Below are positions 26,983-34,002 of a stretch of DNA of 34,002 bases, one piece after another. Position 1 is the stretch's first letter, and each line of letters begins with the position of its first letter. Both the position numbers and the translations under genes were made by a program. Where the stretch lies: positions 1 through 34,002 of IMG/VR virus record IMGVR_UViG_3300034107_000043; one strand, given 5' to 3'. Origin of the DNA: a virus. Under the pieces are notes generated by a model. It saw only the letters and a program-made list of their open reading frames with translations, searched no databases and had not been told where the DNA came from.

Positions 26983-27357
26983 TTATAGAAGTTCTTTTAA
27001 CTTATCTTTGTAGTGTTGTATCATATCTTGCAAATCTGCGTCTGTAAACTTAACTGTTTGCTTTGATTTTAAAACCATTTCTTCAGCTTTGTCTAATCCT
27101 AAATATTTAGCAAATAAAAACTGTTGTCCCTGATTTGTAATATTGCATCCGTAACATTGAACTCCTACGTTGTTTTCATCCCAACGTGTTGAGTAATGCC
27201 TACGTGATTGAAAGTGTCCACATTGTAATTTTTTATAATGGTCTTTTTTTCCACAAGTTACGCATTCAGCTATTTCATTTTTTGCATAACGCAAACGTAT
27301 GTATTGTGAAAATACAGTATCTAAATTTTTTACTATTGTGGAACGTTTGATTTTCAT
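26983..27357 (-). CDS. NinG/Rap-like recombination protein
   Basis: The 124-residue protein resembles lambda NinG (Rap), a Holliday-junction-type nuclease. Zinc-type Cys32-x2-Cys35 precedes Cys46-x-His48 in LQCGHFQSRRHYSTRWDENN, with Cys68-x2-Cys71 (QCYGCN) following. The GHFQSRRHYSTRWDENN stretch is the family hallmark. It is bounded by its own terminator (26927-26954) and by the 253-nt gap upstream, so it is probably a single-gene transcript. Confidence 0.82.
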   Translation of the reverse strand: MKIKRSTIVKNLDTVFSQYIRLRYAKNEIAECVTCGKKDHYKKLQCGHFQSRRHYSTRWDENNVGVQCYGCNITNQGQQFLFAKYLGLDKAEEMVLKSKQTVKFTDADLQDMIQHYKDKLKELL

Positions 27358-27405: not shown

Positions 27406-27438
27406 TTTGTTTGTTTTGTAACTTTTTATATAAATTTG
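27406..27438 (+). promoter_or_regulatory. Strong candidate plus-strand promoter
   Basis: TTTG at 27406 and again at 27410, then TAAATTTG at 27431-27438 (spacers 21 and 17 nt). Both fit the Bacteroidota consensus. It points away from the NinG-like gene into the mirror repeat, with no plus-strand gene downstream. Confidence 0.55.
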
Positions 27439-27444
27439 CGTATA

Positions 27445-27600
27445 ATAATTAACCAATGCGTTGAAGACTTGCAGAACCTAATAAAAATGGAAGCTGTTTG
27501 GAACAGGTACTTTGAAAATTTGTTTTTCTAGGGAGCTTTTTCTTTCTTTTCTTTTTCTTTTTTTAAACTTTTTTTCTTTTTCTTTTCTTTCTTTTGAAAT
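27445..27600 (+). ncRNA. Possible small RNA from the plus strand
   Basis: The predicted start lies about 7 nt after the TAAATTTG box. The transcript would carry a CTGTT-TGG-AACAG hairpin, then the U/C-rich mirror tract. A 13-codon ORF (MEAVWNRYFENLFF) ends before the tract and could be chance. The 3' end is unknown; the uridine runs near 27540-27564 may terminate it. If longer, it would be antisense to the spanin and amidase genes. Confidence 0.3.
27538..27595. repeat. Perfect homopyrimidine mirror repeat (27-nt arms, 4-nt spacer)
   Basis: On the plus strand the T runs are 4,3,4,5,7, each separated by single C, then AAAC, then 7,5,4,3,4 in exact reverse order. Both 27-base arms match base for base in mirror order. 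The arms are all pyrimidine, with 23 T and 4 C. Such tracts can fold as intramolecular triplex (H-DNA). It starts 15 nt beyond the spanin stop, where no hairpin terminator is found. Confidence 0.92.
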
Positions 27601-27610
27601 AAAAAACTTA

Positions 27611-28060
27611 TTAAATAACTTTTAAATACTTTTTAAGTATATAATATATAATTAATAAAATAATAATTAAAAATAATATATAATATTTAACATTATAATT
27701 ATCTTTTTCAGTATTCTTTTGTTTAATTACTTCTTTAGATTTAATATTTGATAGTTTACTTTCGTTTTTAATAACATTATTCTGTTTTTTATAAGTAGTA
27801 TTATCTTTTTTATTTTCGTGTCTTAAAACAACGTTAAAATACGTTTTGTTTTCATAAGTAAAAGGCTTTAAATTATCTTTAGCTTCTACTGTAAAAATAT
27901 TTAATTCGTAATCAAATTTAACTTCTACGTTTGAACTATCTTTTGTTACTGTATTTTCTACAATATTTGTTTCAACTTCTTTTTCTTGTTTGTTTATAGC
28001 TACTTTTCTTGAGCCACAGGAAGTTAAAATAATAAAAGTAAGTAAATATATATATTTCAT
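27611..28060 (-). CDS. Unimolecular spanin candidate
   Basis: The 149-residue product has a lipoprotein signal peptide (MKYIYLLTFIILTSC, modified Cys at 15). A periplasmic middle follows with strands around FDYELNIFTVEAK and a Lys/Asn-rich segment, then a C-terminal transmembrane helix (YYILFLIIILLIIYYIL, about 125-142) with a basic tail. An outer-membrane lipid anchor plus an inner-membrane helix in one chain is the layout of u-spanins such as T1 gp11, which fuse the two membranes in lysis. The gene directly follows the endolysin. It has no hairpin terminator. Confidence 0.68.
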   Translation of the reverse strand: MKYIYLLTFIILTSCGSRKVAINKQEKEVETNIVENTVTKDSSNVEVKFDYELNIFTVEAKDNLKPFTYENKTYFNVVLRHENKKDNTTYKKQNNVIKNESKLSNIKSKEVIKQKNTEKDNYNVKYYILFLIIILLIIYYILKKYLKVI

Positions 28061-30971: not shown

Positions 30972-31510
30972 TTTTTAAATTCTTTAAAGTTTCCGTATTT
31001 GTCAATTATAACCTCTTTTCCTCTTATATTTACTACCGAATATTCAGAAGTTTCTATGTTTCGTATCTTAATTTCTGCGTTTTCTACTTTCTTACTTTCT
31101 ATTTCTAATAAATAATTATCTAATTCAATCTTTTTACTTTCGTTTTCTTTTTCAATTTCACTTTCTAAATCAGATAACTCTTTTCTTTTTTTATTAATAG
31201 ATTGCTTTTGTTTTAAAATTAAATCGTAATGCTTTTGTTTAATATCCTCAAACTCTAAATATTCTTTATATAAATTATGTTTTACATCGTTTAACGTAGT
31301 TTCTAGCGTGTTTAAGGCACTTTCTTTATCTTTTAATATACTTTCATCTTCAATTAAAGATAATGCTTTTAAATCGTTTATTTCACGCTTTAAATTTATC
31401 TCATACTCAAACGCTTCCAATTTCTCTTGAAAATGTACTAAATCAATTTCCTTAAGTTTTAGTAGCTGCTCGGTCTTACCAAACAGCCACTTTATTAAAA
31501 ACTTCTTCAT
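30968..31510 (-). CDS. Coiled-coil protein, 180 residues
   Basis: A strongly charged, Lys/Glu-rich protein with heptads over about 15-145 (KLKEIDLVHFQEKLEAFEYE and similar) and a small beta end with VVNIRGKEVIIDKYGNF. It starts MKKFLIKWLFGKTEQLL, whose amphipathic helix may touch membranes. It sits between the fibre and lectin-like genes and its start overlaps the fibre stop as TAATG. It could be a fibre trimer, chaperone or tail protein. No specific family. Confidence 0.55.
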   Translation of the reverse strand: MKKFLIKWLFGKTEQLLKLKEIDLVHFQEKLEAFEYEINLKREINDLKALSLIEDESILKDKESALNTLETTLNDVKHNLYKEYLEFEDIKQKHYDLILKQKQSINKKRKELSDLESEIEKENESKKIELDNYLLEIESKKVENAEIKIRNIETSEYSVVNIRGKEVIIDKYGNFKEFKK

Positions 31511-34002
31511 TATTTTAATGCTATAAATTGCGGCAACGTTAAAGGGTCTTTTTGAGTATCTACTTTTAAAGTAAGTTCGTCTAATTTATCAATAGTTGAA
31601 AGTAATTGCGGTGCATCAGTTGCTAATTGGATTTGATTACCTACGTAAAACGCTTGTTCGTAAGTACCTTTTAACATTGAGCTTCTTCTACGAACTCCAG
31701 AACTTGTATCACGCCCCACAATATCAAAACCACTAATACCAATAAATCTATAAGGCTCTGTATTGTTTGCTAACGTAGTTAATAAAGTTCCTGTTGCATA
31801 GTTATCCGTTGGTGTTGCAGTTGTAACTTTCCACAATTCATATCCTAAATTATCCCCACCCAATATTGATACCTGACTATCACCATTCGCATCTTCAATT
31901 AATACGTTTATAATTTCAGTATCGGTTGGTGTAATAGTTTTAGGCGGTGTAGCTTTCATAGCGTTGTACTTTGTGCTTTCATTAATTACAATAGATTTGT
32001 AAGTAATTGTTCCACTTACAACCGCTACTATTGCACTTGCATCATCTTTGATTTTTACATTGTAATTTCCAAAGTCTAAATACAAACCATCCCTTGCAAC
32101 TAATTGACCTAGTTTTATTCCTGTTTCAGTAAGTCTAAAGTTAGCGGTAGCATCATAAATTTGTGCTGTATCCGCTAAAGTTGTGTAAGCTTGTACGGTT
32201 GCTAAAGTAGCTTGTGTAATACCTACATCCTCTTGGTCTGTAATATTATACCAAACATTACCACCATTTAAAACCAAAGTATCTGCTGTACGTTTTTGTC
32301 CGTATTTTTCAGCAGCTAAATAATACGTTCCTGCTTCAGCTGGCGTAAAGTAAACATAGTAAGAACCTGCATTTACATCACTTGCAAAGTATTTAGTTGT
32401 TCCATCAGCTTTGAATATACAAAGTGAATAATCATCGCTTGGTGGGTTTATTTCTAATACTGTTGAAGTTCCTGCACTTGTTTGGTAAACTCCTGTAATT
32501 TTTGCAGTTCCTGTTAAAGTAATTGTATTTGCTTTTAACGTAGTAAAGTTTCCACTACCTGTTGAAAGTGTTACTCCATTCCCTACATTAATAGTCCAAC
32601 CAACATAATCAGAAGTTGAGTTTGCAGTTAAGCAATTATCAGCTTGAAACAAGTTAGCAGTTTGGTTTAAAGCATATTGGTAAGCATCATAAATTTGTTG
32701 GTAAGTTAAATTCCCTGTAATAGTCATTACTTTTGTAGTAAAATTAAAAGCAATACCACTAATAGCAGCAGCAGTTGAAATTACTTTATCTGAAGTTGGT
32801 AATGAAGCGTGAGATGCTGAAACTTCAAAAGTATTATTCCCACTCAAAGCCATTGTTAAAGGTTGCTTATCATAGCCATATCTACTTAAAAATGCTGGGT
32901 GAGTTTCTGCTCCTTTTGTTTGACCACTACAGAAAAATTTTGGAGTGCTCATTAAACCATCTGAGTTGGCATAATCCCAAGCATAAATAAATTCGGTTGT
33001 AGCAAAACCACCACTAATAGGAAGTGTTTTAGCTGTTAAATCAAAAGTTATATTTGATGTCCCACCTTTTGCTCTAACACCTGCCACATTTGTTCCTACA
33101 GGTTGAAAGTAAAAATATCCATCATTTAAAACATTCCCTAAAGAATCTTTTGATATTGCTTTTATTTGTTTAGAATACTCAATAACATTATAAGTTGCAC
33201 CACCAACACTTAGACTTCTCCATACAATATTAGTTCCCAACAAGTTATTTTTTAATCTAATCCAAGCACCTCCATAAGGTACAATTTGAGAGCCAGGATA
33301 ATATGCTGCTTGAATATATCTTGTATCGTAATTCTCAATATCAATTCTTGTAGCAACAGCCACAGAAGATAAATTTAGTTCTGGTCCATCTGTAAAAATT
33401 GGTGTAAATCCTTTCAAACTAATTTGAGGCACTCCAAAATTTAACCAAGTACCTATCCAAGTTTGTGTGGCTTGCAAATCAATTACAGGTGTTGTATTGT
33501 TTAAACGAATACGTGCTTGTGATGTACCTGTTCCTTTTGCACACAAAATCCAACATTCATCCCCTTGTGTTGTAATACGTGCAAAGTTGCCACTAGACAC
33601 AGTAAACCAATCACCACCAAAACGAATACAAGCATCAATTACTGTTAATTTTGCTGGATAAGTAGCATTGGTGCTATTAAGTGCTGTTGCTCCACCCATT
33701 CCATTTGTACCTAACCAATCAAGACCAGCATAAGGAATAGGACCATTACCTGCAGTTGATATTCTACCATTAAAAATTAACTCTCCACCTGAAACACTAC
33801 CGTTAACCGTTAATCTATTATTACAACTACCATCGTTTCGTAATTGTGCAACTGAACTTGATACTGTTAAAGTACCGTTAATAGTTAAATCTAAACCTCT
33901 ACAATCAAAAGTTCTAAATAAATCTCCCCTATTGGTAATTAGGAAACCTGTTGCAGAACCTAAACTTAAATTCATTGTATCAGTTCCAGTTTGTGTAATA
34001 CC
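31510..34002 (-). CDS. Long fibre/appendage protein, main part (begins at 382 in the circle)
   Basis: This stretch encodes about residues 86-915 of the protein that starts at 382. From an internal Met at 33975 the text reads MNLSLGSATGFLITNRGDLF. The product is beta-rich with many Thr, Ser, Gly and Asn, including LTINGTLTVSSSVAQLRNDG, and no long coiled coil. Later segments include a domain with GISGFDIVGRDTSSGVRRRS and a short helical C-terminus (STIDKLDELTLKVDTQ). It is the largest structural gene, encoded after connector genes and before the lectin-like gene, so it is likely a tail fibre or tail-tip appendage. No catalytic motif is seen. The gene crosses the sequence ends, so the start appears missing here. 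Confidence 0.75.
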   Translation of the reverse strand, partial: GITQTGTDTMNLSLGSATGFLITNRGDLFRTFDCRGLDLTINGTLTVSSSVAQLRNDGSCNNRLTVNGSVSGGELIFNGRISTAGNGPIPYAGLDWLGTNGMGGATALNSTNATYPAKLTVIDACIRFGGDWFTVSSGNFARITTQGDECWILCAKGTGTSQARIRLNNTTPVIDLQATQTWIGTWLNFGVPQISLKGFTPIFTDGPELNLSSVAVATRIDIENYDTRYIQAAYYPGSQIVPYGGAWIRLKNNLLGTNIVWRSLSVGGATYNVIEYSKQIKAISKDSLGNVLNDGYFYFQPVGTNVAGVRAKGGTSNITFDLTAKTLPISGGFATTEFIYAWDYANSDGLMSTPKFFCSGQTKGAETHPAFLSRYGYDKQPLTMALSGNNTFEVSASHASLPTSDKVISTAAAISGIAFNFTTKVMTITGNLTYQQIYDAYQYALNQTANLFQADNCLTANSTSDYVGWTINVGNGVTLSTGSGNFTTLKANTITLTGTAKITGVYQTSAGTSTVLEINPPSDDYSLCIFKADGTTKYFASDVNAGSYYVYFTPAEAGTYYLAAEKYGQKRTADTLVLNGGNVWYNITDQEDVGITQATLATVQAYTTLADTAQIYDATANFRLTETGIKLGQLVARDGLYLDFGNYNVKIKDDASAIVAVVSGTITYKSIVINESTKYNAMKATPPKTITPTDTEIINVLIEDANGDSQVSILGGDNLGYELWKVTTATPTDNYATGTLLTTLANNTEPYRFIGISGFDIVGRDTSSGVRRRSSMLKGTYEQAFYVGNQIQLATDAPQLLSTIDKLDELTLKVDTQKDPLTLPQFIALK
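33876..34002. repeat. Terminal direct repeat, right copy (circular overlap)
   Basis: These 127 bases equal positions 1-127 exactly. They lie inside the long fibre gene. The genome is therefore circularly closed or circularly permuted, with no unique ends shown by this assembly. Confidence 0.93.

Follow-up and report, generated by a model that had tools for sequence, protein, structure and literature searches.

Mirror symmetry is useful where two identical strands have to be placed antiparallel along one shared purine strand, which is the situation in the Y.R-Y triplex, and RNA can also bind purine DNA as the third strand. To our knowledge, the pyrimidine-purine-pyrimidine triplex is the sole known structure that requires mirror symmetry. 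In DNA, oligopurine/oligopyrimidine mirror repeats form H-DNA (PMC4060949). In RNA, MALAT1 and the ENE elements wrap two U-rich strands round an A-rich strand, protecting 3' ends (PMC10805700, PMC12501189); when U was changed to C in the U-rich loop of the Evade ENE, its triplex with poly(A) was lost (PMC12501189). As for bacteria, Holder et al. (2015; PMC4666352) described an intrastrand triplex motif which is G/C-rich, lies in a single strand, is repeated through genomes and has been linked to instability.

Here, a pyrimidine mirror repeat is analyzed in a viral DNA of 34,002 nt (IMG/VR record IMGVR_UViG_3300034107_000043, positions 1 to 34,002), the whole of which is hereafter called the window. 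Our preferred reading, to which we give a probability of about 0.45 on the strength of sequence comparison, is that the repeat would be the 3' module of an accessory small-RNA gene on the plus strand and would fold as a triplex on the gene's own template.

The mirror tract and its gene

Arm 1 (mirror part, 27538-27564) and arm 2 (27569-27595) are exact 27-nt mirrors of each other around the 4-nt spacer AAAC (27565-27568), with T runs of 4,3,4,5,7 and 7,5,4,3,4 and a single C between runs. All 27 of the 27 positions are mirrored, which is the sequence pattern of an H-DNA forming mirror repeat, and both the arms and the spacer are those given in the earlier note on this DNA. The left arm has an extra T at 27537, without a mirror partner. 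The second-longest mirror in the window measures 15 nt; when the window is shuffled 30 times by a first-order Markov model, the longest mirror arm is 9-13 nt. No other pyrimidine run in the window is as long as the two of the tract (29 and 28 nt).

The annotated genes that flank the tract are all on the minus strand. On one side lies the gene for a RAP/NinG recombination endonuclease (26983-27357, minus strand; PHROG 5034, E 1e-26), whose own divergent promoter can be read directly on the minus strand at about 27388-27363. On the other side is the last gene of the lysis cassette (27611-28060, minus strand; PHROG 5885, unknown function), which is convergent with the RNA and has a spanin-like layout: as in a one-piece spanin, its product of 149 aa combines a lipobox (LTSCGS) with a membrane helix at the C-terminus. 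Farther away, in the tail gene region, the minus strand encodes a protein of 821 aa (31510-33975) that has no PHROG match.

According to the earlier note, the tract ends the lysis operon. As a description of the unit this is wrong or incomplete, since the tract appears to be the 3' module of a small-RNA gene on the plus strand. Judging from its sequence and that of its relatives, the region 27411-27595 is almost certainly an RNA gene. From 5' to 3', the following elements can be distinguished on the plus strand: (i) a predicted promoter of the Bacteroidetes type, TTG-N17-TAAATTTG (27411-27438), found by a regular-expression scan and by the enrichment of its box in the family; (ii) an optional 5' RNA hairpin, CAA-UGCG-UUG (27454-27463), read directly from the sequence; (iii) a conserved RNA core, ACUU-[P1]-ACCUAAUAAA..GGA-[P1']-UUGGAWC (27467-27504), defined by alignments, P1 covariation and a covariance model; (iv) a partial mirror arm, arm 0 (27518-27527), recognized by run-length matches in the family; (v) a G-rich spacer, CUAGGGAGC (27528-27536), between arm 0 and arm 1; and (vi) the oligopyrimidine arm 1 (27537-27564 with the extra T), the AAAC spacer and arm 2, the latter being the probable region of the RNA 3' end, whose position is likewise predicted. 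Both oligopyrimidine arms were read from the sequence and compared across the family. The promoter, the conserved core and the third arm do not figure in the earlier note.

The two strands of the core hairpin, P1, are identified by covariation (27471-27474 with 27494-27497) and in the window read GCAG/CUGU; covariance model R1 has a single match in the window, at the core (E 8e-14). The 5' hairpin varies among members (CGA-UGCG-UCG in L050, an extra C-G pair giving CCAA/UUGG in L162), and other members have GCU-UAU-AGC or GCAA-GAUG-UUGC in its position. Arm 0 consists in the window of T3 G T5 (27519-27527), which read backwards (T5 G T3) partly mirrors the outer end of arm 1. A G-containing spacer follows arm 0 in nearly all mirror members (GTAGG, CTAGGGGGC, ACTAGG and others), while the 4-nt spacer between arms 1 and 2 can also be ACTC, GTCC, ACCT or ACCC and is sometimes replaced by GGTTAC.

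The RNA family

A scan of IMG/VR with a loose core pattern, CTAAYAAAN{1,4}GGAN{5,7}TTGGAWCAG, finds the core in more than 120 contigs, usually where the lysis genes meet the RAP gene. The carriers are uncultured phages whose hosts are probably flavobacterial. The same block lies upstream of the RAP gene in the related loci L028, L036, L037, L038, L050 and L064, and also in L005, L015 and L021. In a set of 57 distinct cores collected by pattern, without any pairing requirement, P1 is fully paired in 56, with 26 different stems, compared with 12% when the strands are reshuffled. Alignment A1, whose 37 members were selected for a paired P1, has 65 cells with double changes; shuffles give 16.3, and slid controls no more than 10. 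Of 99 members, 71 have the promoter box TAnnTTTG no more than 75 nt 5' of the core, most commonly 16-17 nt ahead of ACTT, as opposed to 11 of 99 control stretches. A Watson-Crick fold of the whole RNA gives no gain over shuffles (z 0.3 to 1.9), and the P1 hairpin alone is supported.

Other identities for the conserved block were considered. A coding role is rejected: the core looks peptide-like in two frames, each of which is broken by indels (L005/L015) and by stop codons in some members. A mimic of a CRISPR repeat (RNA anti-CRISPR) appears less likely, as P1 with its 26 sequences is unlike a fixed repeat; GTTGAAGACTTGCANARCC has just 11 scattered matches in GTDB contigs. Mimicry of the 16S 3' end (UUGGAUCA) was given up, since some half of the members carry UUGGAACA.

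As regards earlier descriptions, no family in Rfam 15 reaches its gathering score (permissive matches are at chance level), and no match is found among 50,697 INPHARED records of isolate phages. None of 395 bacterial genomes, from the phylum of a Prevotella genome chosen for the Prevotella label of L154, carries the RNA by pattern or by a model that had no positive control genome. Nothing comparable was found in a search of open-licence papers. The small-RNA gene is not previously listed.

Orientation and gene neighborhood

Mirror members with a RAP-like motif in reach number 79. In 68 of them, RAP lies on the strand of the RNA, downstream of it; in the other 11, the window among them, it is upstream on the opposite strand. 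The RNA strand is the pyrimidine strand in every member and in both gene orientations, and the tract therefore belongs to the RNA, not to the gene order. The purine-rich minus-strand transcript evoked in the earlier note does not hold in general, as the genes are codirectional with the RNA in 68/79 oriented loci.

Among the 80 closest relatives of the RAP locus, the core is present in just 8 and absent from 72. In the codirectional group, RAP often starts shortly after arm 2. Relatives that do not have the RNA unit (L029-L033, L039, L040, L045-L049) carry in the gap between lysis and RAP genes a near-perfect palindrome, e.g., the GCGTGTACACGC hairpin, then TTATTTT, both read in the plus direction of the window.

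The core is also found without the mirror, in other neighborhoods and with other 3' domains. In L199, L217, L263, L290, L297 and L353, the RNA (with or without mirror) has as its neighbors not lysis or RAP genes but genes that encode Zn-ribbon and sigma-factor-like proteins. Class B RNAs (L005, L021, L143, L204, L250) join the P1 core to a pseudoknot-like 3' domain. This has a U-rich strand that faces an A-rich one (CCUUUGUUAUUUU / AAAAUAACAUAGG) as well as CCACCC/GGGUGG, likewise in this order, and appears to covary. Since class B swaps the mirror for another 3' domain, the mirror is an exchangeable module, which fits a function at the 3' end.

Conservation of the mirror symmetry

The earlier note had proposed to check whether mirror symmetry, and not just pyrimidine bias, is conserved in relatives, and the result is strongly positive. 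Among 104 distinct sequences selected on the core only, which makes the test unbiased, 72 carry a tail rich in pyrimidines. For 62 of the 72 tails, the mirror score is reached by none of 60 shuffles of the T-run tokens (mean 22.3 vs. 10.7), and mirror order is ahead of direct order in 60 and behind it in 7.

Members with a mirror score of at least 15 provide 24 distinct asymmetric run patterns, all of which are then mirrored, with 0 direct copies; for instance, 4,3,4,5,7 (the window), 4,3,4,5,6, 4,3,4,6, 5,3,5,5, 3,4,3,5, 4,4,3,5,5, 4,4,5,3 and 4,5,4,3. Consequently, at least 23 changes of pattern preserved the symmetry. The chance product, counting one per pattern and equal run sets, is about 10^-26, a figure which takes the patterns as independent and is thus a guide, not a probability. 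Facing separators are C/C in 208 of 235 cases, and A/A, G/G or mixed in the rest; paired changes include C-to-A at both mirrored sites in L028 and G/G in L195. A few members are partly symmetric (L015/L163, L176, L178, L186/L202, L187, and L036 at one site), as expected of half-compensated states. The symmetry extends to arm 0: its final pair of T runs is the mirror of the pair that opens arm 1 in 55 of 72 members vs. 15.3 on reshuffling.

We know of no process of DNA or RNA copying that makes or repairs mirror repeats, which, together with the repeated symmetric change, argues for selection; the mirror symmetry is very probably under selection, as far as sequence comparison can tell. One version of the mirror pattern, searched alone, has at least 120 occurrences in the fetched loci, and 57 of those listed have the core. 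Many of the listed matches outside these 57 have a broader version of the core, and some resemble coding or chance tracts. In L359, a T-rich mirror (TTTCTTTTTCTTTTT ACCC TTTTTCTTTTTCTTT) has no core and sits in G+C-richer, apparently structured surroundings; it may belong to an unrelated RNA with the same tail.

A possible mechanism

The triplex suggested in the earlier note gains good support from the conserved mirror symmetry, and triplex formation is likely to be the reason for that symmetry. The mechanism that we propose would run as follows. The small RNA would be transcribed on the plus strand from the promoter at 27411-27438; two identical pyrimidine strands, bridged by the conserved 4-nt loop, would lie antiparallel on one purine strand as a Y.R-Y triplex (U.A-U, C+.G-C); and the purine strand would most likely be the template DNA strand of the same RNA gene, an RNA arm, once made, folding back onto the next arm's purine strand. 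Such a triplex would stall and release RNA polymerase, leaving the RNA with a defined, protected 3' end and insulated from the neighboring lysis or RAP gene.

The identity of the purine strand is the more tentative part of this proposal. The RNA itself has no purine strand for the arms, and the longest match of an arm elsewhere in the fetched phage loci is 8-14 nt. As run patterns vary between phages and C faces C, a fixed target in trans fits less well than the tract's own complementary strand. In the codirectional group, moreover, no listed gene yields the tract as purine RNA, so that the template DNA strand remains as the candidate. A partnership with this strand, and with it a role in ending the transcript, is conceivable but falls somewhat short of an even chance. 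The same caution applies to the fuller version, in which the three arms may fold, during transcription, onto their own gene's purine strand as a hairpin-free triplex terminator or 3'-end lock. The nearness of RAP after arm 2, as well as the hairpin and TTATTTT of relatives without the RNA unit, speak for a role at the transcript end; against the template triplex, A or G separators weaken the corresponding triplets, and arm 0 is superfluous for a simple two-arm clamp. Besides, we know of no bacterial polymerase that terminates at a triplex. The purine partner may alternatively be a host target, or tracts in parts of the phage genomes outside the fetched loci. In any case, the tract may have the stop or insulator role put forward in the earlier note, because it is located where the RNA must end.

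Alternative explanations

The tract could be a pure DNA element, forming H-DNA under negative supercoiling as a topological or transcription barrier where the genes meet, with the RNA as just a transcript that crosses it. An exact Y/R mirror with a 4-nt spacer is indeed of the type known to form H-DNA (PMC4060949), and its symmetry is conserved in the family. Nevertheless, a DNA element should also occur with opposite polarity or in core-free copies, whereas the pyrimidine tract is found on the RNA strand throughout the family, it accompanies the core in both orientations and most core-free T-rich mirrors look like chance or coding tracts, all of which makes this explanation unlikely. About equally unlikely is a triple helix of RNA only, in which the finished RNA would clamp an RNA rich in purines, be it an added A-rich tail or a transcript of the host or the phage, for 3'-end protection or target capture. 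The strand geometry and the place of the arms at the RNA 3' end are those of MALAT1 and the ENE, and freely varying run patterns would suit a partner as featureless as poly(A). Yet no A-rich tract follows arm 2, the fetched loci contain no phage-encoded purine target, and a C is kept here every 3-7 nt, whereas U-to-C changes cost the Evade ENE its triplex (PMC12501189), an effect which argues against poly(A) as the partner of the phage RNA.

Slippage yields direct or homopolymer repeats, not mirror order. It is hence improbable that the tract is an ordinary U-rich 3' end, whether a terminator or a tail for an Hfq-like protein, whose symmetry came from repeat slippage: an RNA gene does precede the tract and a classical hairpin terminator is not found there, as such an end would have it, but slippage does not account for the mirroring of all 24 asymmetric patterns, nor for that of the third arm. 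A phage replication origin or packaging signal, to which the earlier note gave equal weight, might be sought at an intergenic site adjoining recombination genes; such a role is very improbable, however, because the unit is accessory, being absent from most of the closest RAP-locus relatives, and because the core occurs in other neighborhoods without the mirror. The reading that we prefer is still that of a small RNA whose mirror module would fold as a triplex on its own template.

Significance

Covariation ordinarily exposes Watson-Crick helices. Here, it exposes a conserved mirror symmetry, a signature that ordinary searches for RNA structure would miss and that we know from no RNA family. 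If the arms do form a triplex with their own template, this would be a new way of ending a bacterial transcript and among the clearest natural cases of selected triplex formation. If, on the other hand, the partner is a purine RNA, the novelty shrinks to a variant of the ENE/MALAT1 kind. The more than 20 naturally rewritten versions constitute a ready-made mutant series, with which the long-argued biological role of triplexes becomes directly testable.

Comparison with known systems

The RNAs of Bacteroidetes in Rfam, such as 6S-flavo and Flavo-1, are noncoding RNAs from the same host phylum, from which the phage RNA differs in scoring below the Rfam gathering threshold. The bacterial intrastrand motif of Holder et al. 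(2015; PMC4666352) is likewise a conserved, triplex-capable motif of prokaryotic DNA, but it is not the tail of an RNA gene.

Intrinsic (Rho-independent) terminators also form the T-rich end of small-RNA genes and insulate the neighboring gene. In the phage gene, by contrast, no G+C hairpin precedes the T tract (a scan of 27500-27600 found no G+C-rich hairpin directly before it) and the order of the T runs appears to be selected.

The triple helices of MALAT1/MENbeta and of the ENE, from eukaryotes and their viruses, resemble the phage RNA in having two U-rich strands with single-base interruptions at the 3' end of a noncoding RNA, and in requiring a purine third partner; the two U-rich mirror strands are present in the phage RNA. 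The differences are that the latter has no A-rich tract or poly(A) as a purine strand, either in the RNA sequence or just after arm 2; that its arms are joined by a stemless 4-nt loop, with no G-C stems flanking a U-rich internal loop; and that its C interruptions are regular and its host is a phage.

Finally, with the mirror repeats of H-DNA the phage tract shares a mirror-symmetric pyrimidine strand, a short spacer and the same strand geometry, whereas it differs from them in its constant association with an RNA core and with the RNA strand, in having three arms and in being conserved through covariation.
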